Of a stretch of DNA of 64,000 nt, positions 2,784-64,000 are shown in pieces. The notes beneath the pieces were generated by a model. The model saw only the letters and a program-made list of their open reading frames with translations, was not told the DNA's origin and ran no database searches. The number at the start of each line of letters is the position of its first letter. Position 1 is the stretch's first letter. A program made the position numbers and the translations under genes. The DNA is from Phorcus lineatus (Eukaryota; Mollusca; Gastropoda; Trochida; Trochidae): positions 384,501 through 448,500 of the forward strand of contig OV121087.1 in NCBI GenBank assembly GCA_921293015.1, in the 5' to 3' direction.

Positions 2784-5507
2784 TTATACAGGCACATCAA
2801 TCTTCCTCCTCTTCTTCGGCTTTCTTCTGTTAGCATTCCTCTTAGTCATATTCTTCATCGTAAATGTCAGACACTGAAAGAATTAAAAATATCTTTAAAA
2901 AATATAACATTCTGTATCAAAACAAATTTAGGAAATTTATTAATTTTCAATATTGAGAATGACTTTAAGATTGTTTTGCAATAATTGACAATGTTGGTGT
3001 TGGTAAAGATGAAGTATTACTTTAAAAATGTATGTCCAAGAAATCAGTACTTCTGATTGACATAGTATAAATCTATTGGAACTTTTGTATTATTCGGGTT
3101 GACAGGAAAGCAATTGCATCCTTATTAAAAAGGCATTCATCATGTGAATGAAACAAAGTTTTGTTAAGCAGTCAAATATTTATTTGAGAGCCCCTGCAAG
3201 TCATAAGTCAAACTTTGGTCAATGACTGGCTGACATTGCTGCACTCTGTAATTTTAAACTTAAATAACAGGGATTATGACTGAAACTAGCTGATAGTGAC
3301 CGACGCAAATTATGACTTCTATTTGAAGGTGATTAGAATTGTAGAAGACAGACCTTCTCATCAAGGAAGTCCATGAGTTTCTGGGTGGAACACTTGATAC
3401 CAGAGTCCTGCACTTCCTTCTTCAGCCAGTCCAGTTCCAGCGGCTTAAACACGAGTTATTGAAGTCAAGAAGTGTTAAAGAAAGCTGCCTTCTATCACCC
3501 AAGTGTTGGTTAGTTTGTTAGATGGGCCAGTTCAACATTGACCAAAACCCTGCCAATAATATCCTGGTGTACTCAGTAAGTTCATCTCTATTTTGTGAAA
3601 TAAAAGGTTTGAGTCTAGCAAAATATAACACAAAACGAATGAATATTGATCAACTCTCATTTATGAGAATAAAAATACACAAGGAGAATAATGTATATTT
3701 ATATGAAACAAAAAAACTAATTATTTTTTAAGATTTTTCCTCATATCCAATCAAGTATACTAAGTGCTCAATAGACATTAAAAATTGACATCACAATTGT
3801 GTAGTGACATGGAAATGTAGCTCATTAGTCTATAAGTGAAAAGTTATATCTACAAAAATTAACATAGAGAAAAAAAATATCAAGTATTGGAGGTTCTTTA
3901 CCTAACATTGTTGCAATCTTTGAATGTACTAAACCGAGGGTTCTGTGAGGCAATAGATGAGATGAGGTGAGATGGGATTTTAACGCCGCTTTCAAGATTA
4001 TTTCACTTATATCGCGGCTGCTAGTATTATGGCAGGGAGAAAGCCCGCAACACCATCGTGGCAATGCATTGCGGTGAAACCTGTGAGCATCGGCTGGAAC
4101 TAGCTAACCATGGGTGGTACTGCGCTGAAATTCAGTGTAGCATTGCACCCAAACCTTACTGCGTGTAGAACAGTTCTCTACTGCAGATAAAGTTGCCGAG
4201 CCCCTGGGGGGATTCAAACCCCGGACCTCTTGATCTAAAGCCGATCGCGCTAACCACTGCGCTATCCCGCCCCCTGTGAGGCAATAAACACCAAAGTGAG
4301 ATTGAATATAAGAAATTTGACAATCCCCAATAGCTACTTAATTGATTAAACAGAATTTTATCTCTATATGTCCTCCAACATTTATAGATCGTCAAGATAC
4401 AAAAACTGAAATAATTCCAGGTTTTCTCACCTCGTACATCATCATGCGTGTGTGGATATCTGGGCGTTTCTTCACAAACTGCAGCATCACAGCATTGAAA
4501 TCAACCTGATTACACTGCAAGTGACAATTTCACGTCATTACATCGCAAATCAATGCCAATCAAGTATCATTCATTTCAATAATAATCTAAGGGATAATAT
4601 TTCTATACTCTTTGTATTTACATATTAATCAGCGTAATACTTTTTTGGGATTCAGCTCAGATTTAAAGGTTTCAGAACTTGATGTATTGATAATTATATA
4701 TAGATAATATTGTACAGACAAGGATTTCAAGCAGGGATGAAACAGTTTGTTGCAACATTGATAAAAGCACAATTTTGGTTTATATTGTATAATATTTTTA
4801 TGTTATCAAAGGTTTTTTCCCCAGAATTTTCAGTTTCACATACGTATGGTTTCATATTTATTTTTTGTGGTTATTTAAGTCTGTTGCAATCTTTGAATGT
4901 ACCAAATTGAGTGTTCTGTGAGGCAATAAACAACAAAGTGAGATTGAATATAAGAACTTGTTCATGCAAATTTTCATGAATCCTGTTTTTCATCAGTATA
5001 TATATAGAGAATCTCACCCACATATGTTCTGAAATCAAATACATAAACAAAGATTGATAAGAATACAAACATGCCAAGGATATTCAAAGTTTCATCAAGA
5101 AGTCTCTTTACAGTTGATATCAGAAGACACAAGGATGAGATTCTATATATGATCCAAAGTGATTCTTCATTGCATTTCATCGACAAATGTCCATCCATAA
5201 AAACAACTCAGCCAAAAAGTGCAGTCATGATATAACAATATGACATAAAGATGTTTATGACGACATGGCATTGTGATGTCATCATGTTCATGAGGTCATA
5301 GTATTGTGATGTAATAATTGGATTATGTAATTGTGATGTCATATAATTTACCATGGCCTAAGAGATATCGCTTCATCTTATTCAGGCGATATCTTCTGTG
5401 GAACAAAATTTTGGAAGAAAAATAATCATTTGCTACAGACCTGCTGTGATGCTGACAGATTTTCCTCCTCCTCCTCCTCATGTAGAAAGCTCTCCTCCGG
5501 AACATCA
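2784..5507 (-). CDS. SLX4: SLX4 exons 20-23: C-terminal CCD (SLX1-binding) domain
   Basis: Exons 5507-5441, 4514-4431, 3443-3354 and 2873-2784 read SDVPEESFLHEEEEEENLSA, then CNQVDFNAVMLQFVKKRPDI, then RMMMYEPLELDWLKKEVQDS, then KLMDFLDEK CLTFTMKNMTKR, and a basic tail to the stop TAA at 2786-2784. Human SLX4 ends with the same plan: KVLLYQPFEL..L, LLDFLD.HCITFT and a basic tail. This conserved C-terminal domain binds the SLX1 catalytic subunit. All four exons join in phase, and the last exon is only 30 codons including the stop. Confidence 0.95.
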
Positions 5508-8500
5508 CTGGAACACAGAGAAGGTGAAGTGATATGGGGTTCAACGCAAGAGTATTTCACTTATACAGCATTGTCTTGTATCTTAACAACCCAAAGTGAC
5601 ATAGAATATGTTTGCTTGGCTTTGATTCATGTCAAAATACCATACATCGTGATTTGAGTGCAAATCACCTTAATTCACTAATATAGTCATCCCTTTTGCC
5701 AAATTTATGACAATAGTTTTCAATGAAAATAATTAAAAACAGGCTTAGTGCTGAGAACATATTGTATCATGGCATGTGTCAATATAAAATAAACTTAAAA
5801 GCAGTGTCCCTTTACAAATGATTTAACAAAATAAAGGCCTCTCTGCTTTTTAAGACTTTGATTACCCAGAGGTGGTAATCTATGACTTGCTACATTGTTT
5901 TGGAAAGTTGGTCCATGACATGGTAAATAGTTATTTAAACTCTAGCCGATGCCAGTTACCTTCGTCCAGAGTCCTGTGAAGAAGAAACACTTCTGTTGCT
6001 ACTCCCGTCTTCTGATGCTGATGTGTCAGAACTAGCTGCGGATGGGATCCTTGTGGTCACATGACTAGAAGACACTGAGGATTTTGAGGTTTGGACTGAG
6101 GATTTTGAGTGTTGCTCTATTTTCCTTACTGGTTTTGATGATGTCTTTGTAGCTGTTACAGAAGACTTTGCTGATGGTTTAGAAGATTTCTGTTTTGAAA
6201 GATCAGGTTTGGTGTTAGCGGAAATTTGTTTGATAGGTGAGTCTTGGTCATAGTCACTGTCAGTTTCATCTGAAAAATAAAAAAATATGTCAGTCAATAA
6301 CAGATTCTGAAATATTATCTAACAGGAGGCGCTACACAACCTGAAGAATGGCAGGAATAGTCCCATTGTGCTTGTCAAACACAAATTTTAACTGGTTAGC
6401 AGCATGGTTTAAATTATCCTTTGATTAAGACTGTGGGAAGACATTGAGACTGTGATAAGAGATTGAGATTGTGGGAAGAGATTGAGACTGTGGGAGAAGA
6501 GATTGAGACTGTGGTAAGAGATTGAGATTGTGGGAAGATATTGAGACTGTGGGAAGATATGGAGACTGTGGTAAGAGATTGAGACTGTGGGAGAAGAGAT
6601 TGAGACTGTGGGAAGAGATGGAGACTGTGGGAAGAGATTGAGACTGTGGTAAGAGATAGAGACTGGGGGAAGATATTGAGACTGTGGGAAGAGATTGAGA
6701 CTGTGGGAAGAGATGGAGACTGTGGGAAGAGATTGAGACTGTGGTAAGAGATAGAGACTGGGGGAAGATATTGAGACTGTGGGAAGAGATTGAGACTCTG
6801 GGAAGAGATTGAGACTCTGGGAGATGGCATTAGTACTGACACTGATGAGTCTGTTGGTAGATGTCCTTCAGTAGTATCTTCATCCTCTTCTTCCCCACTG
6901 GACGCACTCCGTACTTCGTTACAGCTTTCTGTAACCAAATCATTTGGTTAATTTCTCTCTGGGTATAACAGATCAAGGTGACAAAAATCTTACTGCAATA
7001 AGCTTACAAATAAGTATCATTTTTATAGTCAACATATTCTGCGACACTTGCTTGATATACTTATTATTTATCTTTAAAGTGTCTTCTGTCTTCGTAAATT
7101 TAGATAATGTCAATCAGTAACAGATCAAAATGAATAAAAACCTACGTCTAAAAAATCGAACAGACACCAAACCAAAATGGCAAACAATTACAACAGAAAC
7201 CACTTACCAGGAAATTGACAATGACAACTGACAATGATTCCACAATCTAGCTGTTTCCATGAGAGAAAATGAGATAATTGGCATCTGTAGTTAGTTACCT
7301 TCAACTGTGGTGTGTTCATGGAATCGTAGTTCGGCATCGGGGTGAAGGGCGAAGGGGGAACCCACTTATTGCTCTTCTTTACTGGTTGCCGGGACACAGG
7401 GGTCTTGAAGGTGGTTGTCTAGAAATAAAATGCATTCCATGAATATGAAGAAAAGATAGATTTTATGGGCAAAACCTTCTTTATTCATAAATCACATCAT
7501 TTCAGAGTATATGTTTACTTTTTCATCCTGTGTGATGTGCGGAATAACAAAATATGTATCAACTTTACAGCATCGAAAAAAACCATACATGTTAACAAAA
7601 CTGAGGAAACCTTATCAGAGAGACTGAATAAGTTTATACAATAGGGATTTGCAAAACAAAGATGATCTTTATATACAAAATCTTGCTATTCTTGTATATG
7701 TCACTTCTAAATGCCCTTCTTAGACTATGGTGAAAATGCATGATCATACATGGTAGCATGTGGGTCTAGGCATACTTCAGGACAAAGTTGCAGATTTTGT
7801 ATATTCTATGACACACGTTTTTTTTTATTAAACTTTGTTTAATGGCTCATAATAAAATATACAAATTAAACAAGTGTTTGCCACTAACATGGCAATGTCC
7901 CCCGCTGTTATGAGATATTTGGCATCATTAAAAAAATTAAGACTCAAGGTGCTAAGCTTCATTAGATATTGCGTTTATAATATATTACAAATTGTCAAAG
8001 TGTCATGGTGACCTTGACCTTATTTTCAATATCTCTGAGTCATTGGTTGTTGTAGGCTGTCGTCAAATATGATAACTGTAGGTGCTAAGTTTTACAAGAT
8101 ATTGCATGAAAAATGTATTACATAGTGGTCAAAGTGTCATGGTGACCTTGAAAATGAGGTCAGGGTCACCAATGTCAACTGGCGTCTGAGTCTTCCTCCC
8201 TTGAAGGCTGTCACCAAATATGAACACTCTAGGTGCTAAGCTATAAGCTTTACGACATATCATGTTAACAATGTATTACAAAATGATGACAGTATCATTT
8301 AAAGTCCACTGGTGCCTGAGTCATCCGCTGTTGTAGGCTGTCGTCAAATATGAAAACTCTAGGTGCTAAGCTTTACGAGATATCGCGTTAACAATGTATT
8401 ACACAGTGGTCAAAGTGTCATGGTGACCTTGAAAATGAGGTCAGGGTCACCAGTGTCGACTGGCGTCTGAGTCTTCCTCCATTGAAAGCTGTCACCAAAT

Positions 8501-33998: not shown

Positions 33999-36078
33999 AT
34001 GGCGACTGCCGAGAAACTAACTGACCATTTTTTGACGTGCACTGTCTGTCACGAGGTCTACACTGACCCGTCCACTCTGGCTTGTGGTCACTCCTTCTGT
34101 GGTCAGTGTATTCTTAGATTCACCAAAACCAGAGATGATGCCATCAGATCCAAGTCGATTCCATGTCCGTTCTGCCGGAGGCTGACGAGAGTACCGGACC
34201 CCTCCAGACCCATGGAAGAGTGGGCGGGGCAGATGAGACCAACCCTCCTACTTAAGGGTCTCCTCGACACTATTGGTCCTGGCACTAAAGGTAGGCTGAT
34301 AGATTATTTATTAATAAATTGACATCAGTCCAATACTTATACAATTCAAAGTCCCTCATATTTTTAAGGAAATTTTATAAGATTTTGTGAATTTGTTTCA
34401 AAATTTGAAAAATTATTATTTTGCAGACACAACCAACTGTAATTGGTGTCATGCTGAAGGGGAGACAACTCCAGCAGTAAGTTGGTGTTCAATCTGTGAT
34501 GCCTCTCTCTGCTCGAGTTGTAACAAGGCACACAGACAGAGTCCTTCAACTCGACATCATGACGTCGCTGATGTAAATGATGAGGTCAAGGTCAGGAGGA
34601 GGACAAAGGTCACATGCCTTGAGCACAAGGAAGAGTTTGTTAAGTTCTTCTGCAGAGACTGCAAGATGACCTTGTGCCAGACCTGTTGCATCCTCCACCA
34701 CCGGAAGTGTGAGTCGGTCGTGACCCTGGAGTCCATGTTGCCGGAAATGAGCAAGTCTTTGAAGGCGAGGAAGGAAACACTGATGAACAAAGCCAGAGTT
34801 GAGGAGGGGCAACTGGAGTCTCTGAAATTAAGAAGCAGGGAAATTGATGAGACAAAATCATCTGTCCAGTCTCAGATTCGTTCAACAGTACAGATAGTTA
34901 TTGACGCTGTGAAGAAGAAGGAGAAGGAACTACTGGACAGTCTGACTGAAATCACAGAGAAACAGATGGATCAACTTAAAGATGATATCAAGACAGGAGA
35001 TATGGCTAGAGACATCTACAGACAACAGTACGAGTTGATTGATCAGGCTCTGAGCTCTGAGGGTGAGATGGACATGTGTGATATATACCAATCAACTAAG
35101 TCTGAGGCTGCAGAATCTGAAGGACACGTGAAGAAGAGAAGAATGAAAACAAGGATAGAGTTCTCACATGATGTGGACAGACTTGACAGAGTGCTGAGCG
35201 ACCTTTCACTGGGAGAGATCCAAGTCCTTGATGAAGTGGATCTGGACACTGTATCTACACCTGTACTCAATCACACTGTGGACTGCAAGACAAAAGAGGA
35301 TGAATGTAATCCAGAACTCTATGATATAGTTGGAATGAAAGTGAATGGATCAGAAACACTTATCGTCGCTGATGATGGAAACAACTGCATTAAATCTTTC
35401 TATTCAAGAAACAATCAACATCATTACAGCCGACTGAGTATGAAATGTAGCCCAATACGGATTGCCAAGTTTGATGACGACAAGGTAGCTGTCAGTCTTG
35501 ATCAATCTAAACAAATAGCGATAGTGTCAGTGTCCCCTGACCTGACCCTCGACTCTTCCATAATAACACAGAAGGAGTACACTGGTCTGACTGCCCTGAC
35601 ACCAACAACACTGGCAGCAGGTTCTGTCTCTCCTCGCTGTGTAGATATCATAGATCTGAGTGGGAACGTGATGCACTCTTTCAGTCCAATACACAATGAA
35701 GAGAAGATCATACAAGCTCCAAACTTCCTCTGTACTACAACACAAGGGAACATCCTGATATCTGACCTTGTGACCAAGTCTGTGACGTGCGTGACTCCCC
35801 AGGGAGAGATTGTATTCAACTACTCCCCGACAGGAAAGAGAGCACTGATAGGTCCTCGAGGCATCACTAGCACTGCTACAGGACACATACTCGTGGTGGA
35901 TTTTGGTGGAGACAAGTTAACTGTGTTGAAGGATACGGGAGAGTTTGTCAGAGACTTGCTGACATCACAGGAGGGGATCAGTGGACCTTTATGTATAGAC
36001 TGGGATGCGAGAGGACGACTCTACATCACACACTGGAATGAGGGTATTGACACCGTCCAAGTGTTTTCATTAAAGTGA
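33999..36078 (+). CDS. TRIM copy A: RING, B-box1, B-box2, coiled coil, NHL-like propeller
   Basis: Exons 33999-34290 and 34427-36078 join in phase 1 (AAAG|GTAGGC, TTTTGCAG|AC) to give 647 residues. RING C3HC4: C14, C17, C29, H31, C34, C37, C56, C59, so a probable E3 ubiquitin ligase. B-box1 is about 102-142 (CNWC...CSIC...CSSC...HH) and B-box2 about 161-195 (CLEH...CRDC...CQTC...HH). A Lys/Glu-rich coiled coil spans about 200-330. The C-terminal about 280 residues show propeller-type repeats (GNILISDL, GHILVVDF, GRLYITHW) as in TRIM2/3/56-like proteins. Molluscs have large expansions of this class, often linked to innate immunity. The substrate is unknown. All of the protein except the RING is in one exon. 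Confidence 0.93.
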
Positions 36079-43644: not shown

Positions 43645-45647
43645 ATGGCGACTGCCGAGAAACTAACTGACCATTTCTTGACGTGCACTGTCTGTCACGA
43701 GGTCTTCACTGACCCGTCCACTCTGGCTTGTGGTCACTCCTTCTGTGGTCAGTGTATTCTTAGATTCACCAAAACCAGAGGTGATGCAATCAGTTCCAAG
43801 TCGATTCCATGTCCGTTTTGTCGGAGACTGACGAGAGTACCGGATCCCTCCAGACCCGTGGAGGAGTGGGCGGGGCAGATGAGACCAAACCTTCTACTCA
43901 AGGGTCTTCTCGGCACTATTGGTCCTGGCACGAAAGGTATATTATGACAAAGAATTGATAAATTGGCTTTAGTCCGAAAATCTAATGATTAACAGTTACT
44001 CATATGTTTATGTAATTCTAATATGTTTTTGTGAATGTGTTAGATATATCTGAAAATATTTATTTTGCAGACACAACCAACTGTAATTGGTGTCATGCTG
44101 AAGGGGAGACAACTCCAGCAGTAAGTTGGTGTCCAATCTGTGATGCCTCTCTCTGCTCAAGTTGTAACAAGGCACACAGACAGAGTCCTTTAAGTCGACA
44201 TCATGACGTGTCTGAGATGACTGATGAGATCAAGGTCAAGAGGAGGACAAAAGTCACATGCCCTGAGCACAAGGAAGAGTTTGTTAAGTTCTTCTGCAGA
44301 GACTGCAAGAAGACCTTGTGCCAGACCTGTTGCATCCTCCGGCACCGGATGTGTGAATCAGTCGTGACTCTGGAGTCCATGCTGCCGGATATGAGATGCT
44401 CCTTGAAGGCGAGGAAGGAAACATTGATGAACGAAGCCAGAGTTGAGGAGGAACTACTGGAGTCACTCAAATCTAGAAGAAGGGAACTTGATGAGACAAA
44501 ATCATCTGTCCAGTCTCAGATTCGTTCTACAGCACAGAGAGTTATGAACGCTGTGAAGAAGAAGGAGAAAGAACTACTGGACAAATTGACTGAAGTCACA
44601 GAGAAACAGATGGATCAACTGAAAGCTGATATCAAGACAGGAGACATGGCCAGAGACATCTACAGACAACAGTCCGAGTTGATTGATCAGGCTCTGAGCT
44701 CTGAGGGTGAGATGGACATGTATGACCTGTACCAGTCCAGTGAGTCTGAGACTGCAGAGTCTGTAGAAGATGTGAAGAAGAGAGGACTGAGAACAAGGGT
44801 TGAGTTCTCCCAGGATGTGGACAGACTGGACAGAGTACTGAGCGACCTTTCACTTGGAGAGATCCAAGTCCTTGATGAAGTGGATCTTGACATTGTATTT
44901 ACACCTGTACTCAGCCACACTCTTGACTCCAGGACTAAGGAGGATAAATATAATCCATATATCTATGATATAGTTTGTATGAAAGTGAATGAATCAGAAA
45001 CACTTATTGCCGCTGATTTCGAAAACACGTGCATAAAGTCTTTCTATTCAAGAAACAATCAACATCATTACAGCCGACTGAGTATGATATGTAGCCCAAC
45101 ACGGATTGCCAAGCTTGATGACGACAAGTTAGCTGCCATCCTTGATGACTCTAAACAAATAGCATTAGTGTCAGTGTCCCCTGACCTGACCCTCGACTCG
45201 ACCATAACAACACAGAAGCAGTACATTGGTCTGACCGCCCTGACACCAACAACACTTGCAGCAGGTTCTGATTCTCCTCCCTGTGTAGATATCCTAGATA
45301 GGAGTGGGAACGTGATGCGCTCTATCAGTCCAATACACAATGGAGAGCCTATCATACGGGATCCGAACTTCCTCTGTATTTCAAGACAAGGGAACATCCT
45401 GATATCTGACCTTGGGACCAAGTCTGTGGCGTGCGTGACTCCCCAGGGAGAGATGGTATTCAACTACTCCCCTACAGGAGAGAGAGCACTGATAGGTCTT
45501 CGAGGCATCACCAGCACTGCTACAGGACACATACTCGTTGTGGATTATGATGGAGAAAAGGTAATAGTGCTGAAGGAGACGGGAGAGTTTGTCAGAGACT
45601 TGCTGACATCACAGGAGGGCATCAGTGGACCTTCGTGTATAGACTGA
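43645..45647 (+). CDS. TRIM copy B: RING/B-box/propeller protein, truncated by a nonsense codon
   Basis: Exons 43645-43936 and 44071-45647 join in phase 1, giving 622 residues. RING, both B-boxes and the coiled coil keep all zinc ligands. The frame stops at TGA 45645-45647 where copies A and C have the TGG (Trp) codon of the 'IDW' motif. Beyond it the frame is intact for 26 more codons (GRGRIYVTHL...TVQVFTLK) to the ancestral TGA at 45726-45728. The loss removes the last propeller strands, which normally close the ring, so the propeller may be unstable. Intron 1 and exon 2 differ clearly from copy A, unlike the upstream region. It could be a young pseudogene, a truncated allele, or a functional shortened form. 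Confidence 0.85.
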
Positions 45648-46344: not shown

Positions 46345-47998
46345 GCAGTCATTGGTACAAAAGTATGTAAGAAAACCTAAGCATCGCTTTTATGCAGCAT
46401 TTATTGATTTTCGCAAGGCATTTGATTCTGTTGATAGAAGTAAACTGCTTTATCAACATGGAATTCATGGTAAACTATATCATATTTTGGAAAGTATGTA
46501 CAAGAATGTTTGTGCTTGTGTTAAAATCGGTAACTGTGTCACCGATATATTCAATACATCAAGCGGAGTTAGACAAGGTTGTATGTTAAGTCCTCTTTTA
46601 TTCATATTTTTCATCAACCAGTTGGCTGTTGATTTACAAAATGACGACTCTAGAGGCATTTTTGTAAATGATGCAACCGAAGTCATAAAACTGCTACTCT
46701 TTGCAGATGATATAGTATTAGTTGCAGATTCCGTTGCTGATTTACAAAGGAAGTTGAACGTTTTAGAAAAATTCTGCAATAAATGGGGATTGGTTGTAAA
46801 TATGGAAAAATCAAACATAATCGTTTTTCGTAAAGGTGGAAAACTCAAGAAGGTAGAAAAGTGGTACTATAAAGGCATTGAACTGAAAACAGTTTCTTAT
46901 TACAAATATTTAGGAGTTATATTTTCATCACGACTATGTTGGTCTACAGCCTGTGAAACCCTTGCTAACCAAGCCTCTAAAGCATGTTTTCCTATTTACC
47001 AGTTGATGAAATGTTACCCAAATCTTTCAATGAATGTTATTTTGTCTATATTTTATACAAAGATTTCTCCAATTGCTTGTTATGGTAGCGAAATATGGGG
47101 GTTTAAGTTTCGAGAAAGTGTGGGAAAAGTCCAGAGTAATTTCTTCAAAACCTACCTGGGTATAAGTAAAAGATCTTCATCAAAAGCGGTTCTGGGTGAA
47201 ATGGGGCGCTACCATCTCTCTATACGTTATTTTTGTCGATGTATAAGATACTGGTGTAGGTTGATTCATATGGACTCGTCACGAAATCCCCACGCCTGTT
47301 ATAACATGCTTAAAGCACAGGATGAAGCAGGCAGTGTAAACTGGGCTTCGCATGTTAGATTGTTACTATTTCAGACTGGTTATTCATATGCCTGGATGTT
47401 TCAGGAATGTGGAAATGTATCTCAATTCCTGAATTTGTTCAAACAAACTTGCATAGATTTAGACATCCAATCTTGGTATGGGCAAATAGAATCATCAACA
47501 TTTCTTAAAACATATTCATCCTTTAAAACGATATTTGGACAAGAAAAGTATCTAAGTTTTGACATTAATAAGGATTTGAAAAATGTACTTGTGAAGTTTC
47601 GATGCATGTCACACAATTTGAAAATTCAGAAAATGCGTTTGACCAAATACACTTCTTATTCTGAATTATTATTTGAACGTTGTAACTTAAGAACTGTCGA
47701 AGATGAATTTCATTTTGTTCTTGTTTGTCCTTTCTTTCGGGATAGTAGAACGAAACTCATACCAAATCGATTTTGTCAGTTTCCAACGCAGCAAAAGTTT
47801 GTTGAACTTTTGTCTTGCAAAAATGAAAATGTACTTAAAGGTTTTGCTTTATACTTAAAAAGAAATTTGTATGTATGAAATTAAGCTCGCACACCAACAT
47901 GTTCATGTACATTAACATTAGTATAAATTGTACATTATTTTTGTATTTGTACTCTGATCCACGCGGCCTCCAATGCTGAATAAAATCTCTCTCTCTCC
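46345..47998 (+). mobile_element. 5'-truncated LINE inserted in the TRIM B flank
   Basis: The insertion breaks the similarity between the 3' flanks of blocks A and B at about 46,345; similarity to block A resumes near 48,020. It contains the reverse-transcriptase frame and a short 3' tail ending 'aataaaatctctctctctc'. The 5' endonuclease portion is missing, which is typical of LINE truncation. A remnant of the same family is at 2,120-2,345. Confidence 0.85.
46352..47878 (+). CDS. LINE reverse transcriptase, 5'-truncated but open
   Basis: A single uninterrupted frame of about 508 codons. Reverse-transcriptase motifs in order: AAFIDFRKAFDSVDR (motif A), SGVRQGCMLSPLLF (motif B), LLLFADDIVLVAD (catalytic FADD), WGLVVNMEKSN and YKYLGVIF. 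A C-terminal region with CNLRTVEDEFHFVLVCPFF follows. There is no endonuclease and no RNase H. The frame has no ATG start because of the 5' truncation, so it is not an autonomous gene. The intact frame implies a recent insertion. Confidence 0.9.
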   Translation: MVQKYVRKPKHRFYAAFIDFRKAFDSVDRSKLLYQHGIHGKLYHILESMYKNVCACVKIGNCVTDIFNTSSGVRQGCMLSPLLFIFFINQLAVDLQNDDSRGIFVNDATEVIKLLLFADDIVLVADSVADLQRKLNVLEKFCNKWGLVVNMEKSNIIVFRKGGKLKKVEKWYYKGIELKTVSYYKYLGVIFSSRLCWSTACETLANQASKACFPIYQLMKCYPNLSMNVILSIFYTKISPIACYGSEIWGFKFRESVGKVQSNFFKTYLGISKRSSSKAVLGEMGRYHLSIRYFCRCIRYWCRLIHMDSSRNPHACYNMLKAQDEAGSVNWASHVRLLLFQTGYSYAWMFQECGNVSQFLNLFKQTCIDLDIQSWYGQIESSTFLKTYSSFKTIFGQEKYLSFDINKDLKNVLVKFRCMSHNLKIQKMRLTKYTSYSELLFERCNLRTVEDEFHFVLVCPFFRDSRTKLIPNRFCQFPTQQKFVELLSCKNENVLKGFALYLKRNLYV

Positions 47999-52049: not shown

Positions 52050-54126
52050 ATGGCGACTGCCAAGAAACTAACTGGCCATTTCTTGTCGTGCACTGTCTGT
52101 CACGGGGTCTTCACTGACCCGTCCACTCTGGCTTGTGGTCACTCTTTCTGTGGTCAGTGTATTCTTAGATTCACTAAAACCAGAGATGATGCCATCAGGT
52201 CTAAGTCAATTTCATGTCCGTTCTGCCGGAGACTGACGAGAGTACCGGATCCCTCCAGACCCGTGGAGGAGTGGGCGGGGCAGATGAAACCAACCCTCCT
52301 ATTCAAGGGTCTCCTCGAAACTATTTGCACTAAAGGTAGGTTGTAAATGCACAATGATCAATTATAGATAAATCCGTTTCAGTCCAAAAGTCTTAAAATT
52401 GATTGTCAATAACTCATTTCTACAAGACCATTGTAAACTGCTCTTTTTAAAGGGGTTACATGCAGTGAATATCTGTTTCGCAGACACAACCAACTGTAAT
52501 TGGTGCCATGCTGAAGGGGATACAACTCCAGCAGTAAGTTGGTGTCCAATCTGTGATGCCTCCCTCTGTTCTAATTGTCACAAGGCACACAGACAGAGTC
52601 CTTCAACTCGACATCATGACGTGTCTCAGATGACTGATGAGGTCAAGGTCAAGACAAGGTCAAAGGTCACATGTCCTGAGCACAAGGAAGAGTTTGTTAA
52701 ATTCTTCTGCAGAGACTGCAAGAAGACCTTGTGCCAGACCTGTTGTATCCTCCACCACCGGAAGTGTGAGTCGGTCGTGACTCTGGAGTCTATGCTGCCG
52801 GAAATGAGAAAGTGTTTGGAGGCGAGGAAGGAAACACTGATGAACAAAGCCAGAGTTGAGGAGGAACAACTGAAGTCACTCAAATCTAGGTGCAAGGAAA
52901 TTGATGAGACAAAATCATCTGTAAAGTCTCAGATTCGATCTACAGCACAGAGAGTTATTGATGCTGTGAAGAAGAAGGAGAAGGAACTTCTGGACCAACT
53001 GACTGAAGTCACAGATAAACAGGTGAATCAACTGAAAGCTGATATCAAGACAGGAGACATGGCTAGAGACATCTACAGACAACAGTCCGAGTTGATTGAT
53101 CAGGCTCTGAACTCTGAGGGCGAGATGGATTTGTATGATCTGTACCAGTCAAGTGAATCTGAGTCTGCAGAGTCTGTAGAAGACGTGAAGAAGAGAGGGA
53201 CGAGGACTAGGATAGAGTTCTCACAGGATGTGAACAGGCTCGACAAGGCACTTAATTATATGTCACTGGGAAAGATCCAAGTCCTTGATGAAGTGGATCT
53301 GGACATGGTATCTACACCTGTACTCAGCCACACTGTTGACTGCAGAACCAAAGAAGATGAATGTAATCCAGATCTCTATGATATATTAAACATTGAAGTG
53401 AATGGATTAGAAACACTTCTTATCGCCGATTTCAGTAACAAATGCATCAAATCTTTCTGTTTACATCGTAACAGCCGACTGAGTATGAAAAGTCACCCAA
53501 TGCGAATTTCCAAGCTTGATGACGACAAGATAGCTGTCACACTTCTTGACTCTAAACAAATATCAATAGTCTCAGTATCCCCTGACTTGACCCTCGACTC
53601 GACCATAGCAACACAGAAGCAGTACTGGGGTCTGACTGTCCTTACACCAACAACACTGGCAGCTTCTTCTTTCTCTCCTCTCGGTGTAGATATTATAGAC
53701 AGGTGTGGGAACGTGATGCGCTCTTTCAGTCCAATACACAATGGAGAGAAGATCATACAGGAACCACACTTCCTCTGTACTTCAAGACAAGGGAACATCC
53801 TGATATCTGATTGTGGGACCAATTCTGTGGCTTGCGTGACTCCCCAGGGAGAGGTGGTGTTCCACTACTCCCCTACAGGAGAAAGAGCATTGATAGGTCT
53901 TCGAGGCATCACCAGCACTGCTACAGGACACATACTCGTGGTGAATTATGACGGAGAAAAGGTAACAGTGTTGAAGGAGACGGGAGAGTTTGTGAGGAAC
54001 TTGCTGACATCACAAGCGGGCATCAGTGAACCTTATGGTATAGACTGGGGTGCGAGAGGACGACTTTTTGTGACGCACGCGAGTCAAGACGAATTTGACA
54101 CCGTTCAAGTGTTTAAATTCAAGTGA
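52050..54126 (+). CDS. TRIM copy C: RING, B-box1, B-box2, coiled coil, NHL-like propeller
   Basis: Exons 52050-52335 and 52484-54126 join in phase 1 (AAAG|GTAGGT, TTTCGCAG|AC), giving 642 residues. All RING ligands are present (CTVC, CGHSFCGQC, CPFC), and both B-boxes keep Cys/His ligands (CNWC...CPIC...CSNC; CPEH...CRDC...CQTC...HH). The coiled coil and propeller are full length and the IDW tryptophan missing in copy B is kept (IDWGARGRLFVTHA). Two residues are lost before the splice site relative to A and B. A polyadenylation signal AATAAA lies at about 54,672. It is the most diverged of the three copies, so it probably split off first. Confidence 0.93.
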
Positions 54127-56424
54127 TATACACCAACAGGTGGTTGATGTAGAAATAGAAGGCAGGTTTGAGTACATGCAAATGATTTAAATGAACTGAA
54201 ATATTTGGAAATTCTTTACTAAAAGAAACTATAAAAATGGAACAAAACTATATTCTTATGAATTAAGGGTTAAATGAATGAATTATTGAAAGAAAGGTCT
54301 TTGTTTCCTCGGATTTACAAAGTAGTAACTAAATTACTGAAATACCGTTTCCTTTGTTTAATCAATGATCACAGTGAGGTTTACAGTTTATACATTCTCG
54401 TGACGTTTTGCCTCGTGAATTTACCTATATTGAAAGTTGTATATCAGTTCTATTTTCCGGGGTAAATATTAATCTTAATTAACATTAAAGTGTGTACTTA
54501 GCATATCTCGCCAAATTCAGGCCTTTGAGGATGTGATAGCCTTAGTAACAAAGTTGGGCCATGCTTTTTTGTGGGAAGTACCCATAACGTACGTAAATCA
54601 TAGTTTCTTGTTGGGATTAGTAGGTAATCACAAATGCTTCCTGTCTTATTTAACGATTCAATGTTGAATGAAATAAATGCACGAAATAGAAACTTTGTTT
54701 ATTAGTGACATAGATTATTACAAAGCCGACCAAGATATAATAGTCTTGATTTAAAAGTATAACCAATATTTGGCCGGAGATCAAGATTGCTTATTACAAC
54801 TATTGAAAATCTTTTGTTGAATCCCTGGAATAAAACGTGCAAAAAACCGTTGAGTATAAATAAATGATACTGATTAAGTAAATATGAATTGGTGAATTAA
54901 TTAGGATGTTTAAGTGTAATTCAGGCAAAATTTCACACCAATCTGGTATCCGCTTCCATATGTTTTAATATAAGTTAATGTAGTTCCTTACTGTTCAAGC
55001 CAAATGATTTGAATGAACTCACAGCTTGTCTAGCTTTTTGACAACCAATATAAGTTCTATCTCTATACTTCATTTCTGACGATGCCGTTGTACTTTACGG
55101 AGTCAGTATTGGTAATGCTAGCCTTCTTTAGAAACGGAAAACAGATCTTCACAACAGACCACAAATGCACTAAAACAAAACACATATCAGCCAAATAGGA
55201 ATTCAAACCATGCAAAACTGAATATCCTACCAACAGGAAACAACGGCGTGAAAACCAAACGCGCGAAACAGTGACAAGAGCGTGTGGAACGGAACACATA
55301 TCACCCCAAACGATCGACAAATCACCTCAAAACCTCACTTCTAGTCTAGCAAAATGGCGGTCAGGGACTACGAACAGGCTTTTGACATATGTTTTCTCTC
55401 ACCACAAGTCCATAACACAGAACGCATAACGCATAAACATAAACCTCGAACTGTACTAAGTTTCAAAGCTATGTGTATAGTTACCTCTGCTAGACTCAAT
55501 TTTGTACACTTTGGTCCTTATAGTGTTACAGAACGCGGTTTGCTGCTTGACTCAGGTTCGATTTTGATATTTCGTATCAAAATATTGGTTTTAGGACACG
55601 GTTTCCTTGCTTTTTAGCGAATTTGTTTCCAGAATTTAGACAGATTCGAGATAGCATTATTAATCGATTTACAAAAATGATTTACTTTCATGTCTGATCG
55701 AAAAGCGAAAACGTTTAAGTCCTTTGCGAGCATCTCTTCTATATGAGATGTGCACAATTCAATTCTCTTGTTATTTTATTTTTGAGCAAACTAACCACGG
55801 ATATTTCTCTGGATTTTTCGACAAGCAACTAAATAATTCTAAAATTCGTTGTTTGAATATATTGTTATTGGATATTTTGAAATATTTTGGACACACGCGA
55901 ACCAACATCGTAATGACAACGACAAGGTGATCGAATTGAAGTGATATTTCCAGGTCTTTACTTATAGACGGTTAATGTAGAAGTTGAGATAGATTTTATC
56001 TCAATCGAACTTAAACAAGCTCTTTAAACATGTTTTTCTTTCCACACTTCAATGTTGCAGGAATGAAACAGTTACATGTGTAATAAAAAAAAAAAGGATA
56101 TGCATAGAACCTCACTGTTATTTCAGATGTTTTACGCTCATCGACACATTCACATTATGCAAATGTTTAATCAGTGAGTTTAGATACCATCAGTTTTATA
56201 TGTGAAATAAGTTATGTCACACTTCAGGCAAGGTGTTGGCACCGTCCAGGTGTTTGCAATAGGGAAATACAGGTCTCCAAGTCTATATTAATAGATTTTT
56301 TTCTGTAAAAATCAGGTTCGGTTTGATTATAAGACTGAAGTGAACTAAACTATTAAATTTTTTTAAAAGTGAGGTTGGGTGATTCGAGCTTTAATACAAC
56401 TTTAAATTGTATTATATTTATACC
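54127..56424. other. Intergenic, no supported gene
   Basis: Contains a short ATG-initiated frame at 55,354-55,617 (MAVRDYEQAF...) with a good start context but no recognisable family or splice partner. Part of 55,990-56,250 resembles the downstream flank of the TRIM duplications ('ttgcaggaatg...cagttacatgtgt'). Confidence 0.5.
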
Positions 56425-56690
56425 GGGATAGTGCAGTGGTTAGCGCGTTCGGCTTCGGATCAAGAGGTCCGTGGTTCGAATCTCAGTCAGATTTGGGTGT
56501 AATGCTACGCTGAATTTCAGCGCAGTACCACCCATGGTTCGCTAGTTCCAGCCGATGCTCGCAGGTTTCACCGCAATGCATAGCCACAATGGTGTTCCGG
56601 GCTTTCTTCCTCAAATAAAACTAGCAGCCGCGATATAAGTGAATTAATCTTGAAAGCGGCGGTTAACACCAACTCACCTCACCTCACCTC
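56425..56690 (+). mobile_element. tRNA-derived SINE with 9-bp target duplication
   Basis: The head reads GGGATAGTGCAGTGG (box A) and GTGGTTCGAATCTC (box B), followed by the same body as the SINE at 3,956-4,273 and a tail of (ACCTC)n. The flanking repeats are 'atttatacc' at 56,416-56,424 and 56,691-56,699. Its pol III boxes are near consensus, so it is a relatively young copy. Confidence 0.92.
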
Positions 56691-56880
56691 ATTTATACCA
56701 CGGCTTCTGGTATCGTTGCAGGGAGAAAGTCTGCAATACTATTTTGATCATGCTTTTGAGTGAAAACCTCCAAGCATCGGCTGGAATTAACGAACCGTGG
56801 TTGGTAATGCGCTGAAATTCAGCGAAGCTTTCCACGAAGGCGTTGCTGCAGATACAACAGTTCTCTACTGCAGACGAAAT
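56691..56880 (-). mobile_element. Older SINE copy abutting the younger one in opposite orientation
   Basis: 'gttgcagggagaaag', 'agcatcggctggaa', 'gcgctgaaattcagcg' and 'acagttctctactgcagac' follow the order of the plus-strand sequence at 4,028-4,190 of the minus-oriented SINE. The tRNA-like head is lost. The younger SINE inserted at its left edge. Confidence 0.75.
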
Positions 56881-57196
56881 AGTGGGTAGACGGCGGTTGT
56901 TGTTTAAATCACGTTCCAGTGGCAGACAGACTTCAACAACACTAGACAGATATCATGTGTATGTTCCTAATATTGATAAGTTCTCTGTTAACGCTCAAAA
57001 TCTGCAAACAAACGAGTGCAATCTAAGGAGATTTTTTTATCGTTGCCAAGGCAATGATAATCCCGATCGTTGTGAGAACTTCTCAAACCCCAAACCCCTT
57101 CCCGGGCCAATCCCCCGTCCTTCCTTTAAACTAGCTTTTGGTGTAGAGCACAGTAATCATAATATTTCTAAAAATCATAATGTGTGTGCAACCTAA
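56881..57196 (+). other. Open frame of unknown status
   Basis: An open frame ending at TAA 57,194-57,196 includes DRYHVYVPNIDKFSVNAQNL and CNLRRFFYRCQGNDNPDRCE, followed by a Pro-rich tail; AATAAA signals follow within 100 bp. It could be a 3'-terminal exon entered at 'tctactgcag', but that acceptor lies inside SINE sequence. No family is recognised. Coding status is doubtful. Confidence 0.25.
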
Positions 57197-58569
57197 CTCT
57201 GTAACTTAACTTTGTAAATGTAATGGTTATTATAACTGCGTTGTAATTGACTTGTAAAAATAATAAAATCTTGATAATAAACTTCTTCAATATAAATTCA
57301 GTCTAAAGTCAGCAGTTATTCATTTCTCTGCATAACGTTTTTATGAGGAGATAAGAAGCGTAATGAGTGAATTGATATTTAACTTATTCAGTTCGTTCAA
57401 ATTAATCGTTCTTCTAACATTCAACCCCGAATTAAACTTTAAGATAGATTTATGTTTTACGTTATATTGAATTTTGATTTTTTTTAAACAGAGTCTTTAC
57501 CAATGCCTCTGATGAAATATTTCACTTTATAAGATAGTTCTGTCTGTTTGCCATTATGATCACCTGAAACCAAAATATCAGTCAACATCAAAATACCGAA
57601 GCATTTAAAGCTGCATAATTTGTCACCATATATATGGGAAATGGCGACGGTTCAAATCATGATTTACAATCTGTGTTAGGATTTTAACCATAGAGGTCCT
57701 GTTGAATACACGTCTTCAATATAAAGAGAAGCGTCATAAAAGTTCCATGTTGCGTTGGAATGATAAGAGCAGAATACAGTCATTAATTTCAAAACAATTT
57801 CTTTTTCAACTATAATACGGAATGAGCAACTGTGTGTGAATAGATATAGCGTTCGATCCACCTCTAAACACTCCATTTTCTGTATTGTATTATATTCATT
57901 GGGAAAAATTCGATTAACAGCCTTTCAAATTACTAGAATTACAGAAATAACTAAAGTTGAATCTATTTCCTTTGTAAATAGATCAATTGATAAAGCAGTT
58001 GTTTGTGTTTGCGTTTATTGTTTTTCACAATTCAAGATATTTTAAAATTATTATGTTCACACCTAAAGTCTGTGAAATAACGAATTGTATGAATGAGCGA
58101 ATTACAGAAAAGTCAGACAAATAAATCAGACAAATAAACAACATTTCACGTCTCCTCAAACTAACAAGTACGTTTTTGCTTCAAGGTATATTTCACGACT
58201 TCTCCGTGATATGCACGTGTTGTTCGTGATTTTCAATAAATGTTTTTATTTCTTCCCCTGTAGTCGAGACACTTTACTGCCAACTGTTATTCAGAAAGGT
58301 TGTTCACAGAATTTCTTTGTTACCAGTCATTCGGAAACACCTCCATTTAATTTTATTTCAAGGTCATATTCTTCCATCTCATATATTGTGCAGTTAAGAA
58401 TCATCATCACTAAACATCGTAGTAAAAATTATCATTATATTTTGCTGAGCGTGACGTCCATAGAAAGAGATACCTTGCATTTCATCAGCATTCATCAACA
58501 CTTTTATAATTATAATCATCATACTACAAAATCAGGGAGACACCTTGCTTTCTTCCTAAATAACCAGCA
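57197..58569. other. AT-rich intergenic sequence, no gene seen
   Basis: Upstream region of the His-Cys box ORF. No TATA box, splice-linked exon or repeat is convincing. Confidence 0.5.
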
Positions 58570-58965
58570 ATGATTAGATTGGACTTTATAAAAAATAAAT
58601 ACATTGAGAAACTGAGGGACAACAGCTCTCAAGTCAGCGAGTGCAGACTCTGGACCGGGTGCACGATCACAAATGGTAACACTCAATACGGCGTCATGAA
58701 CGTCAAGCTCCCTGGGCAAAACTGGCGTACAATTCGGATACATCGTCTCGCATACACCTTGGAACGATGCGGTCCCTCCCTGGTTCCCCCTCCTCGCAAC
58801 CTCGACGTCTCGCACCTGTGTGGGAACAGCCTGTGTATCTACAAAGAGCACCTTGTGCTTGAGTCACATATGGTCAACTTGTCTCGGGGAAGATGTTTCC
58901 GAATTGGAGTGTGTGTTGGACACGGTGAAAATCCGGATTGTTTAGTGAAGTGTAAACTAAACTGA
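58570..58965 (+). CDS. His-Cys box (His-Me finger) endonuclease, I-PpoI type
   Basis: A single-exon frame of 131 residues, visibly more GC-rich than its AT-rich surroundings. The first zinc site is formed by C25 (ECRLWTG), C84, C89 and H94 (SHLCGNSLC...EHL). The second is formed by C109, C115, H118 and C124. The predicted catalytic base is H82 in DVSHLC, the metal ligand is N103 in LES..VN, and an Arg lies in the RTIRIHRLAY strand. In I-PpoI the ligands are C41, C100, C105, H110 and C125, C132, H134, C138, with H98 and N119 catalytic; the spacings H-C, C-C, C-H, H-N and H-C are the same here (2, 5, 5, 9, 15). Every active-site and first-site residue is kept, so it may be an active nuclease. 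No intron, rDNA or transposon frame surrounds it, so its role (domesticated or mobile) is unknown. Confidence 0.87.
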   Translation: MIRLDFIKNKYIEKLRDNSSQVSECRLWTGCTITNGNTQYGVMNVKLPGQNWRTIRIHRLAYTLERCGPSLVPPPRNLDVSHLCGNSLCIYKEHLVLESHMVNLSRGRCFRIGVCVGHGENPDCLVKCKLN

Positions 58966-60180
58966 TCAGGCATAAAGGCCATCTTTACTTATCATTTGAG
59001 AAAATCGTTTTTCTTATACTTTGAAATAGTAATACATTCAGTTTCCGATTATTTTTATCATTGGCAGTAATTTCCCATAGATACTGCTATATCCTGTGCA
59101 AATTGCACTACCTTACGTTTCAACTTTTGTCGACTGCGTTTCATTTACTTTTATTGGATAACCTTCCGTTATTTTGTGAAATCTTTGACTTTAGAAACAG
59201 ACTTGCATAGGGCAGGGTAAGGTCATCAATGCCCTCGTATCTCTTTTCAGAAGGTTTTATAAATCCAAATTGATCCAAAGGATGTATTGTTTTACGTTAG
59301 TAAGTTAGTATGGATTTTTTATTGGTTTATCATAACATATATCCATGGGTGTAGATATTCAAGTTTTTTCCCATATTGCCATATTACAGCATTTTTTCAA
59401 TGGTGCAGATATCCAATTTTAAAACATACTTCAAGTTTTAGTGGCAGAAGTATAGATTCTAACGAAGTAAAATAATCAAGTATTGGTTAATTTGGAGAGC
59501 AATATGTACAATGGTGTTGATGTTTTATCCGCTATGTTTCACGTCTCAGTGGTAGTGAAATGTCTCCAATAAAAGTTTTGATAATTCTAACAAAGATTGG
59601 ACATTCTGAAGAAAGCAAAAACTAATCTGGTTCGAGGCCCTCGTGAGCGCTGTAGACAGCTGAACGCGGCAAGTGGAGAACCAGTGAGTGAGTGAGTGAG
59701 TTGAGCTTTAACGTGTTTTGAACAATATTTCAGTTATTAAACGCGTCGATGACAAGCATCCAAAAGAGAGTGGACAGATAAGGGAGAAAGAAATCGACAG
59801 GATAAGGGAAAAGACGGAAAGAGGGCATATCGAGAGATAGAGAGCAGGTTTTAGAAGAACTCAAATTTGGTCTGGATTCTACCCATCGACCTGTCCATGC
59901 GTAGCTGAATAGCTTACACTGACCAATATACTACTTCTGCCCCGATTTCATCTAGACAGTAGACCAGTTGGCCCGGTTTGGTCAATCGGCTGGTCATGCC
60001 AAGCACTTGGTTGCTTAGTTCTTCTCTATCCCTCTGTTTCTACATAATCTTCTCTTAGCCTAAATAGTTTATATCCCTCTTCTATGCCTCATTTCTCCAT
60101 TTCTTCTCAATTATTTCCTATCCTTCACGTTGCATTCACCTTCTTTCCCTGTTCTGTTGTGTCTGCTCTCTTGCAGATAT
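58966..60180. other. Intergenic, no supported gene
   Basis: Contains a (GTGA)n microsatellite at 59,684-59,700 and an AATAAA at about 59,568 that could serve the upstream ORF. No coding exon is seen. Confidence 0.55.
59684..59700. repeat. (GTGA)n microsatellite
   Basis: Four GTGA units followed by 'gttgagctttaacg', a style common in molluscan dispersed repeats. Confidence 0.8.
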
Positions 60181-60289
60181 TTTTCACTCTGCTTACAAGA
60201 TAGCGATGGCTAATAGGTCAATCTTGGTAAGAACTGGCAACTCCTACTGGGAGTACATCATCCTGGTATCCTCGGTGCTGCTAGCTGGA

Positions 60290-63200
60290 GTCTCGCTGGC
60301 ATGTAGCATCGCCCTTGTTGGAGCTCCGTGATGGGTCGGGACCCAGGGTGATGAACCCTTTTTTGCCTAAATATGGGTCGAAAAGGAAAAAAGAAGATCA
60401 ACGGATGATAGTTCCTCTGATTAGGAGGTTGCTCCATCAACTCCAACATCAAACGTTACAGCATCAACATCAAAAGTTAAATCAAATTCTCAATCATTAA
60501 ACAGCTGGCCACGGTTCTTGGTCATATCATCAGTTGATTGAGAAACGTTACGACTGAATCAATTTGCCACCGCCAAGACCATTCAAGGACTTGCTGGTGA
60601 TGTCCAGAATGTAAAGAAGATAAGGAATGGGTACCTTCTTATTGAATGCAAAACTAAACAACAGCCAATCACTCTTCAAACTCTTAAAACAATAGTTAAC
60701 ACTCCTGTTTAAGTTACTCAACACTCAACAGCAGCAAAGCCATCATCAGGGATAGGGATCGTTGTCTTGAAGATTCCTCAGAAGATGAGCTCCTTGCCAA
60801 CCTCAAGGACCAGGCAGTGACAGCTGTTAATCGCTTGCAGTCTGAGGGGATGGGGAAATCATTAAAACTCACACCAATCTTCTAACTTTTTCTTTGCCAC
60901 AGGCTCCTAAAATCGTCAACGCAGGCTACTACAAATTCAAAACCAACTCTACATTCCAAACCCACTCCAATGTTACCGTTGCCAGAAGTTAGGCCATGGA
61001 AGCAACTCCTGCAGGGCTGATGAGCGTGTCTGTCCCCGGTGTAGCAAGCCCGAGGATGACGACCACTCTGATGACTGCAAGGAGTCGCCCAAGTGTGCCA
61101 ACTGTGCTGGAGAACATTTGGCTTCCTCTAAGGAATCTCCAAAGTAGCAGCAGGAGTCTCAAATTCTCAAACTCAAATAGACTCAAAACATTCCCTTCCC
61201 TGAAGCTAAACGTCTGGTTCTTGAGGGTCCCAAAAAGCCTCTATATTCTTCCATAGTTTCCTCTGCAGCTGTTTCAAAAACGACAGTATCAACTCAAACA
61301 GACAAACAATGGGTGTCACATCCGCCTACTTAAACCACATTACGCAGCTAAACATTTTCAACAATAGGTACAATGACATTCCCTCTTCTTTCTGTTACAA
61401 ATCCTGGCAGTCAATTAACATCACTAAAAACTAAATCACAACCAACCTCATAGTCAAAAGATGCTTAAAAACAAAACAGAAAACATCAGATCGCATTTCA
61501 AAAGGCCAGCGGGATGTGGTCGAGGTCAATAATAAATTCAATTGTTTGGACCTAGAATCTGATGTCTTGATGGACACATCAGACATGCGGCAATCAGCCA
61601 ATACGCCTAAGAAGGGCCATAGGCCACGGTCCTTGGATCGTCGCCTTTCTCCAGTTAAAGCACCACCTTGAGGCCTTTTCTACTTTACCCTCTTATTTTT
61701 ACAATGGCAATCCTTCAGTGGAATTGTCAAAGTTTTAGAGTCAATTATAATGAATTATAAGCACGAAAATACAATCCTCAAGCAATTTGTCTTCAAGAAA
61801 CACATCTTAAAGACACGGATACAGTCTCAATGAGACCATTTGTTATCTACAATTCCATCCCTCCCCCCGCTGATAGGGCGAAAGGAGGTGCATCTATTTT
61901 GCTGCGTGATGATATTATTCACAGAGAAATTTCACTCACAACTCCCTTACAAGCTGTTGCTGTCAGCTTATCATTATTCAAAACTGTAACCCTGTTCTTT
62001 CTACATTTCACCATCTCAAGATCTTAATATCAAAGATCTTGACCAACTAATTAGTCAACTTCCAAAGCCCTTCATATTTCTTGGTGACTTTAATGGTCAT
62101 AATCCCCTCTGGGGTGGGAACACCTTTGATTCAAGAGGAAAACGACTTGAAAATTCTCTTGTCCAAAATGATTTATGCCTATTCAATGATGGTTCTAATA
62201 CCTATTTGCACCCTGCCACAGGTTCATACTCTGCAATAGAGTTATCAGTAACTGATCCATCCTTCTTGGAGGATACATTTTGAAGTGATCACTTCCCCAT
62301 TGTCTTAAAACACTCTTCGCCGTCCCTGAGGGTCACAACCCTCGTTGGAAATTTACTAAAGTCGACTGTTGCCTTTTGCCACAAACATCTTATATATGAT
62401 AAATTCAGCTGAACTGGTTGAGGCCTTTTCCAAAGGTCTCATCAATATTGCAAATGAAACTATCCCTAAAACCATCTTCTTGGCATAATGCTACTATTGT
62501 GTCTATTGCAAAACCAGGAAAGGATCATACAGACTCTTCTAATTATCGTCCCATAGCCTTAACAAGTTGCTTATGCAAAACTATGGAACGGATGATCAAC
62601 GATCGTCTCGTTTGGTACTTGGAAACCAACAAAATACTCACTGACATTCAATGTCCGAAAACAACGAAGTACCATTGATCATTTTGTACATCTAGAAACT
62701 TTTATTCGGGATGCATTTATAAACAAACAACATGCAGTATTCATATTTTTCGATTTGGAAAAAGCATATGATACAACATGGAAGCATGGCATCCTAAAAG
62801 ATTTACATGAATTTGGCATGCAGGGTCGTACAACTTTGTCTCAATAAAATTCGTAGATGGTCGTTGGAATATGGCTTTAAATTTTCTAGATAAAACTCCA
62901 ATTAAGGTCGTTCTGGAGGCCAAATTTCTTGGCGACCTTTTTGACACTAAACTCTCTTTTATCCCACATATAAAAGCACTTACAGCTAAATTTTTAAAAT
63001 AATTAGACCTTTTAAAGGTCGTCTCAAATGCTAAATGGGGTGGAGATGAGGAACCCTTCAAAACTGGACTATGGATCAATCATCTATGGATCTTCCCGTC
63101 CCTCATACATCCAAATGTTAGATACAATCCACCACCAGGGTGTCAGACTTTGACTTGGGGCCTTCAGAACATCTCCCGTTGAAAGCCTTTACATTTTTTG

Positions 63201-64000
63201 TTGAAAGGCTTTTACATCGAAGCTGATGAGCCATCTCTTGCAGATCGGTGCATCATGTTAGCACTTCAATATATAACTAAGCTCAAATCCAATCCTTCTA
63301 ATCCAGCTTACAACTGCGTATTCAATCTTGAGTAACAGCATTTGTATTCTTTAAAACCAAAAGCAATTACACCTCTCGGTATCTCTATTCAACAACATGT
63401 TGAAGAGTAGGATATCGACCTCTCAACTATTGCAGAACACGGTTTACTGACCACTCCGCCATGGCAGTTGGTCAAGCCCCGTGTTGCAATCAGCTTAACC
63501 ACTCATAAAAAATCTGACACCAATCAGTTAATATTCCAGGAGCCTTTCAACGAACTCAGAGATTTTTATTCTGACTACAAACCAGTAAACACTGATGGTT
63601 CTAAGGATGGCATGACAGTTGCTGCAGCAGCAACTGTTACACCTTCAACAACTTATGCTTCAAGGCCACATGATGGAAGCAGCATCTTCACTGCAAAGGC
63701 CATCCATTCAGCATATAAAAATCATCTCCTAACAACTACATAATATTTTCAGACTCTCTCTCTTGCTTACAAGCAATCAAAATTGTTAAAGTGATCACCC
63801 AATTATTAGGGATATTTTAACTGTTCATAATACATTTCTCGAATGCGACATCGTCTTTTGTTGGCTTACTAGCCACGAGGGTATAAGTGGCTGATTCAGC
63901 AGCTAAGTCAGCTCTCAAACTCAAACATGTCTCTCAAACTAAAGTTCCATTTACAGATTCAAAACCTGCTATCAAATCTTACATCAAACAGCGTTAGCGG
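60290..64000 (+). mobile_element. Decayed LINE (ORF1 zinc knuckles, APE endonuclease, RT, RNase H), cut by the window end
   Basis: Fragments in order: WPRFLVISS and ATAKTIQGLAGDVQNVKKIR (ORF1 core, 60,510-60,640); three zinc knuckles CYRCQKLGHGSNSC, CPRC...DDC, CANCAGEH (60,970-61,135); AILQWNCQSFR...PQAICLQETHL and FIFLGDFNGHNPLWGGNTFD (APE endonuclease, 61,705-62,200); IAKPGKDHTDSSNYRPIALT and FFDLEKAYDTTW (reverse transcriptase, 62,500-62,780); LDYGSIIYGSSRPSYIQMLD (thumb, 63,065-63,125); NTDGSKDG (RNase H start, 63,588). Many stops and frameshifts occur, and the RT segment that should hold the catalytic xADD box is deleted near 62,830-62,900. This layout belongs to the I/Jockey group. It is not functional. 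Confidence 0.88.

Follow-up and report, generated by a model that had tools for sequence, protein, structure and literature searches.

The locus considered here raises the question of how a compact gene resembling those of homing endonucleases comes to stand alone in the genome of a mollusc. The gene lies in a stretch of 64,000 nucleotides from Phorcus lineatus (contig OV121087.1, positions 384,501 to 448,500 of the forward strand), the whole of which is referred to below as the window. With a probability of roughly 0.75, we regard it as an orphan copy of the nuclease gene of a KolobokP-type transposon, most likely a relic left stranded with an unbroken reading frame. What looked like a lone homing-endonuclease-like animal gene would then be identifiable as part of a transposon already described.

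The KolobokP DNA transposons were described in 2022 by Kojima & Bao (PMC9587614). According to the parts of that account on which we draw, they contain paired direct repeats of ~450 or ~660 bp with short inverted ends, generate target duplications of 3-5 bp, and encode a DDD/E transposase and, on the complementary strand, an I-PpoI-like nuclease. They also occur as solo repeats and multimers and are found in seven animal phyla, above all in bivalves; autonomous elements of the Pacific oyster measure 4,022-4,748 bp. The same account places the I-PpoI enzyme family also in ribosomal DNA (rDNA) introns of fungi and protists. A preliminary description of our locus had named three possible origins: a domesticated nuclease, a component of a new mobile element, or a recent transfer. 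The enzyme class assigned there was correct and the mobile-element option is the best supported of the three, but a new kind of element was rejected in view of the published KolobokP (PMC9587614); the window gene adds to that known type an orphan of its nuclease.

The open reading frame (ORF) and its presumed functional residues are as follows.

58570-58965, plus strand: intact, single-exon ORF of a His-Cys box (I-PpoI-type, PF05551) nuclease, 131 amino acids (aa)
58642-58644, plus strand: codon of C25, presumed ligand of zinc site 1; conserved column, zinc role by homology with I-PpoI
58819, 58834 and 58849 (codon starts), plus strand: C84, C89 and H94, the other presumed ligands of zinc site 1; conserved columns
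58813-58815, plus strand: codon of H82 (catalytic H98 of I-PpoI, numbering from PMC9587614); column conservation 1.0 (rounded)
58876-58878, plus strand: codon of N103 (N119 of I-PpoI, numbering from PMC9587614); column conservation 1.0 (rounded)
58894-58941, plus strand: C109, C115, H118 and C124, presumed zinc site 2; conserved columns, zinc role by homology

The ORF runs from an ATG to a TGA, with an in-frame TAA upstream that is separated from the ATG by two codons. The Pfam family PF05551 matched its product with 34.9 bits (cut-off 27; E 2.1e-8), and the earlier report of a single-exon frame of 131 residues is confirmed. All ten residues of the I-PpoI-type set (C25, C84, C89, H94, C109, C115, H118, C124, H82 and N103) are present at the positions first assigned to them, and comprise eight His/Cys residues, the putative zinc ligands, together with the catalytic His and Asn. 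The predicted fold is I-PpoI-like. Of the 24 columns conserved at >=75% in the family, the window protein keeps 22; its two departures exceed those of most rows (median 1, rank 116/125), and include H85G, at a column where His occurs in 94% of rows. In an alignment made through a sister protein with a PDB structure, S81, H82, C84, C89, H94, N103 and C109 are spaced as in I-PpoI, and to this extent the equal spacings claimed in the preliminary description hold. For C25 the claim presumably holds as well, if the numbering that we assume for I-PpoI is right. By the numbering that we likewise take to apply there, the second zinc site of I-PpoI is spaced differently from that of the window protein. 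I-PpoI itself, the homing endonuclease of a Physarum rDNA intron (PDB 1cyq, 1a74, 1evw), is 19% identical to the window protein over the alignment; it is longer (162 aa vs 131 aa), and the window gene, in contrast, lies outside any intron or rDNA. The search of the 64-kb window with Rfam (gathering scores) gave 0 matches, hence none to rRNA or a group I intron, which speaks against such a setting, as had been stated from the outset.

The relatives that point to KolobokP are found in the same genome (958 Mb, 74 contigs searched). The window protein matches at least 29 places, the window included, a lower bound since a single query protein was used. Comparison of 20 stretches of 10 kb around these matches, all against all by BLAST, revealed repeated units among the matches listed. 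One of them (L032) is an element of 4509 bp, bounded by 451-bp direct repeats (1684-2134 and 5742-6192) that are 100% identical, with a frame of 666 aa on the plus strand and a nuclease frame of 145 aa on the minus strand. Its diverged relative L034 (4563 bp) has repeats at 1040-1480 and 5153-5602, which are 97.6% identical, and the same arrangement of a long frame (688 aa, plus strand) and a nuclease (minus strand). The long frames of L032 and L034 match the Mutator-like transposase family PF20700 (E 5.6e-74 and 2.2e-74, respectively), and both nucleases match PF05551; with NCBIfam, neither the nucleases nor the L032 transposase gave a match. Shorter relatives (L041, L043 and L047), of ~3.65-3.67 kb from repeat to repeat, encode a transposase without its middle, and on contig C1 nuclease copies recur with a period of 4056 bp in an array whose units share terminal repeats. 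When 12 loci were scanned with exact end patterns, six proved to have both outer ends bordered by the same 4 bp (L032 ACAT, L033 AGCA, L034 ATTT, L041 AGAT, L043 AGAT and L047 ATCT). For the remainder (L030 and L031, which belong to one array, L035, L036, L039 and L048), the scan did not recover both outer ends or the ends could not be matched up. The genome thus carries KolobokP, complete with ~450-bp repeats, genes on opposite strands, target duplications and tandem arrays.

The nucleases of these elements are 34-39% identical to the window protein in the alignment, from which that of L036 was omitted owing to a stop near its start. They have the signature residues in common with it, the sole exception being L033, with F in place of C89. 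A KolobokP-like transposase match lies within the examined stretch at 19 of the 29 nuclease places, including a very diverged one (23%) at L022, and there was no clear match at the remaining ten (nine copies). L022, L027 and L029 were examined over ~3 kb only, and L029 is among these ten; at L044 the match covers 30 residues (E 0.11). In addition, two terminal repeats of L041 stand head to tail, with 8 bp (TAATATCA) between them (4764-4773 / 8443-8452), and this repeat-repeat junction is absent from both insertion-pattern tables of PMC9587614. A second orphan nuclease frame, open from its ATG and 55-56% identical to the database protein P0039, was observed on contig C39 near 6044821 (L040, 4828-5196, minus strand), with no transposase match in its 10 kb. 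This genome, with two or more intact orphan frames, tandem arrays and elements in which both genes are open, offers a place to study the role of the KolobokP nuclease.

The window copy, in contrast to these elements, is not itself a KolobokP element. In agreement with the preliminary description, no transposase was detected in the window, either by tblastn with two KolobokP-like transposases as queries (E<=1) or with PF20700, whose 116 listed matches in the genome (E<=1) include none within the window (contig C12, 384501-448500). Three element sequences compared with the window by BLAST gave short matches only, the best of them (E 0.005) near 40925, far from the gene, and the direct repeats flanking the gene within 55000-63500 were chance-like. 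In short, a search around the gene for an overlooked transposase or terminal repeats gave nothing. The surroundings of the gene are nearly single-copy, as summarised in the following two lines.

57000-59660, strand not assigned: surroundings of the gene; elsewhere in the genome, one fragment on contig C25 and two short, weak matches only (70% and 73%, at window 57204-57328)
58804-59146, plus strand: segment common to contig C25:3747009-3747349 (89% identity), made up of the ORF's 3' portion and the next 181 bp

To the right of the gene, a frequent repeat begins at ~59680.

Searched on its own, the window sequence found no match among about 5.8 billion proteins (E<=1) or in the PDB (E<=10). Judged from its sequence, the frame is nevertheless far from a chance one, because a profile of six family sequences matched 298 proteins (E<=0.01), of which the 120 listed carry PF05551. 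The sources named among the matches listed are Tegillarca granosa, Branchiostoma lanceolatum, an “invertebrate metagenome” and a metagenome-assembled genome (MAG) of Candidatus Thiodiazotropha. For 29 of the 120 listed proteins the longest contig measures 4.0-4.75 kb; sorted into 500-base classes, contigs of 4.0-4.5 kb form the fullest class (22), followed by those of 1.0-1.5 kb (20). Since contigs of 4.0-4.75 kb resemble the published range of 4,022-4,748 bp, we infer that many of the listed relatives are whole KolobokP units in assemblies. The KolobokP-type nuclease assigned to the Candidatus Thiodiazotropha MAG (P0008, ex Ctena orbiculata) is possibly host transposon DNA. Three PF05551-like stretches lie on one 5.8-kb contig of a Verrucomicrobia MAG (L050), which might be eukaryotic DNA binned with the bacterium. 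Eight stretches from IMG/VR fit a pattern, none of which was confirmed, and the phage relatives retrieved by tblastn (325 records, none reaching 60% identity; the 20 listed had E values no lower than 3e-4) were rejected as showing a likeness at the level of the HNH superfamily only.

In a rooted tree of 42 rows, which included 36 proteins hand-picked from the 120 listed and one row of the Verrucomicrobia contig (L050_c), the window protein groups with P0033, P0100 and P0114 (support 94/83, or 99/86 without P0033). It falls on the side of the KolobokP nucleases of its own genome and of the Tegillarca and Branchiostoma proteins, whereas I-PpoI and L050_c, both on long branches, are set apart at 99/94 from the remaining 40 rows, most of which are metagenomic, with no named source. 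The tree is among the points that limit our interpretation, in that its bootstrap had not settled. In trees of 126 rows the position of the window protein lacked strong support, and in one of them its end branch is long (1.08 vs a median of 0.45). Other points also weigh against an origin from KolobokP. The nearest database relatives lack genomic context here, so that their siting in KolobokP elements is not demonstrated, and the window copy retains neither a transposase nor a terminal repeat, nor recognisable ends at which a target duplication could be read. Because of the latter, its descent from a KolobokP-type element is argued from homology alone. Finally, that the full-length frame stayed intact while the rest of the element disappeared is slightly unexpected if the gene is a dead relic.

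How surprising it is can be estimated with the help of the sister fragment on contig C25. This copy is damaged: it contains a 2-bp frameshift and the changes H82N and C115W. Coding and non-coding divergence between the two are not much different, with 13 differences in 160 comparable coding bases (8 non-synonymous, 5 synonymous) and 23 in 181 non-coding ones. We simulated the neutral decay of the window frame, counting it as surviving if the start was kept, no stop arose and all ten signature residues remained. At half the non-coding divergence the fraction of surviving runs was 6.8% (3.8% once frameshifts were included); at 4% divergence since mobility ended it was 19% (12%), and at 2% it was 44% (37%). 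The estimate assumes equal rates in both copies and a split after both had stopped being mobile, and its frameshift rate is taken from a single event. The range of 3.8-6.8% applies to half the non-coding divergence, and rises to 37-44% if only 2% accrued since mobility ended.

The intact residues of the window gene, set against the broken fragment, thus hint weakly at past constraint, which could date from its mobile ancestor. They also speak for co-option, the unlikely case in which the host has taken over the nuclease and kept it by selection. On such an account, itself doubtful, a site-specific cutter would persist as a chromosomal gene that outlasted its transposon, and might target the terminal repeats of KolobokP elements still live in this genome. 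Its role, should this improbable course have been taken, might lie in cutting or restraining those elements, or in another DNA transaction. It would fit the intact frame, the 22 conserved columns kept, the retention of H82, C115 and the frame where the sister fragment lost them, the low neutral survival at half the non-coding divergence, the nearly single-copy surroundings and the second intact orphan on contig C39. Against it stand the similar coding and non-coding divergence, with its 8 non-synonymous changes, the two departures from conserved columns, H85G among them, and the failure of the window sequence alone to find any relative; moreover, selection may predate the loss of mobility, in which case a neutral survival of 12-44% (2-4% divergence since) applies. 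The domestication first suggested for this gene therefore gains little from our data, and the same can be said of the selection invoked in the statement that the frame seemed to be “under selection or newly arrived”. An orphan of this kind, if found to be both expressed and under constraint, would exemplify the retention of a transposon's site-specific nuclease by an animal.

Novelty of arrival fares worse. A transfer from a protist, a fungus or a group I intron, independent of KolobokP, appears highly improbable: the occurrence of the enzyme family in fungal and protist rDNA introns and the Verrucomicrobia contig, with three similar stretches and no convincing transposase match, would be in keeping with it, but the 99/94 split (albeit with long outgroup branches) disfavours a recent transfer of this kind, Rfam detected no intron or rRNA in the window, and the diverged fragment copy makes contamination, or an arrival in very recent times, less likely. 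It is also quite improbable that the gene belongs to a separate, undescribed family of mobile elements whose ends and second gene went unrecognised. Two copies of its lineage, one a fragment, occur in the genome and share 181 bp past the stop, and transposases beside such nucleases can diverge strongly, as at L022; on the other hand, the region 57000-59660 has no further genomic matches beyond those listed above, the window contains no PF20700 match at E<=1, and no direct repeats of note flank the gene.

An orphaned KolobokP nuclease gene therefore remains the preferred interpretation, and the following mechanism can be proposed for it. In KolobokP elements, the Kolobok DDD/E transposase would move the element, and the I-PpoI-like nuclease would introduce double-strand breaks into the long terminal direct repeats, either within them or at their ends. 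Such cutting would provoke unequal exchange (crossover) and give rise to tandem arrays, according to a model put forward without experiments and described by its own authors as speculative (PMC9587614). The window gene probably encodes the same kind of enzyme, which may be active, and would itself no longer be mobile. Its product would work as a homodimer, each subunit carrying two structural zincs, in which H82 may serve as the general base and N103 may help to hold the metal; it is predicted to cleave a semi-palindromic site in a staggered fashion. The gene would have lost, or never brought along, its transposase and repeats; with none of its own, the nuclease, if expressed, could work solely in trans, on other copies.

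One study (PMC7593156) has reportedly found a mitochondrial homing-endonuclease element relocated to a nuclear genome. A literature search, conducted at the level of titles and the openings of abstracts, showed no domesticated KolobokP nuclease among the papers listed; others listed no description of such an element besides PMC9587614. A paper citing the latter (PMC12750733) has as its topic, as far as the portion consulted indicates, Kolobok-like long non-coding RNAs in Mytilus.

Several further features were observed in the window. An inverted repeat at 56497-56835 has 72-bp arms (86% complementary), and similar stretches occur at L037, L041 and L044. A reverse transcriptase frame (RVT_1, E 6.8e-25) at 46352-47878 belongs to an element resembling a long interspersed nuclear element. 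Three similar TRIM-like genes were also identified, of which that at 33999-36078 consists of RING plus B-box/NHL frames and those at 43645-45647 and 52399-54126 of B-box/NHL frames, with a RING-like frame at 43645; these genes, like the genome size of 958 Mb, are in accord with the animal genome assumed in the preliminary description.
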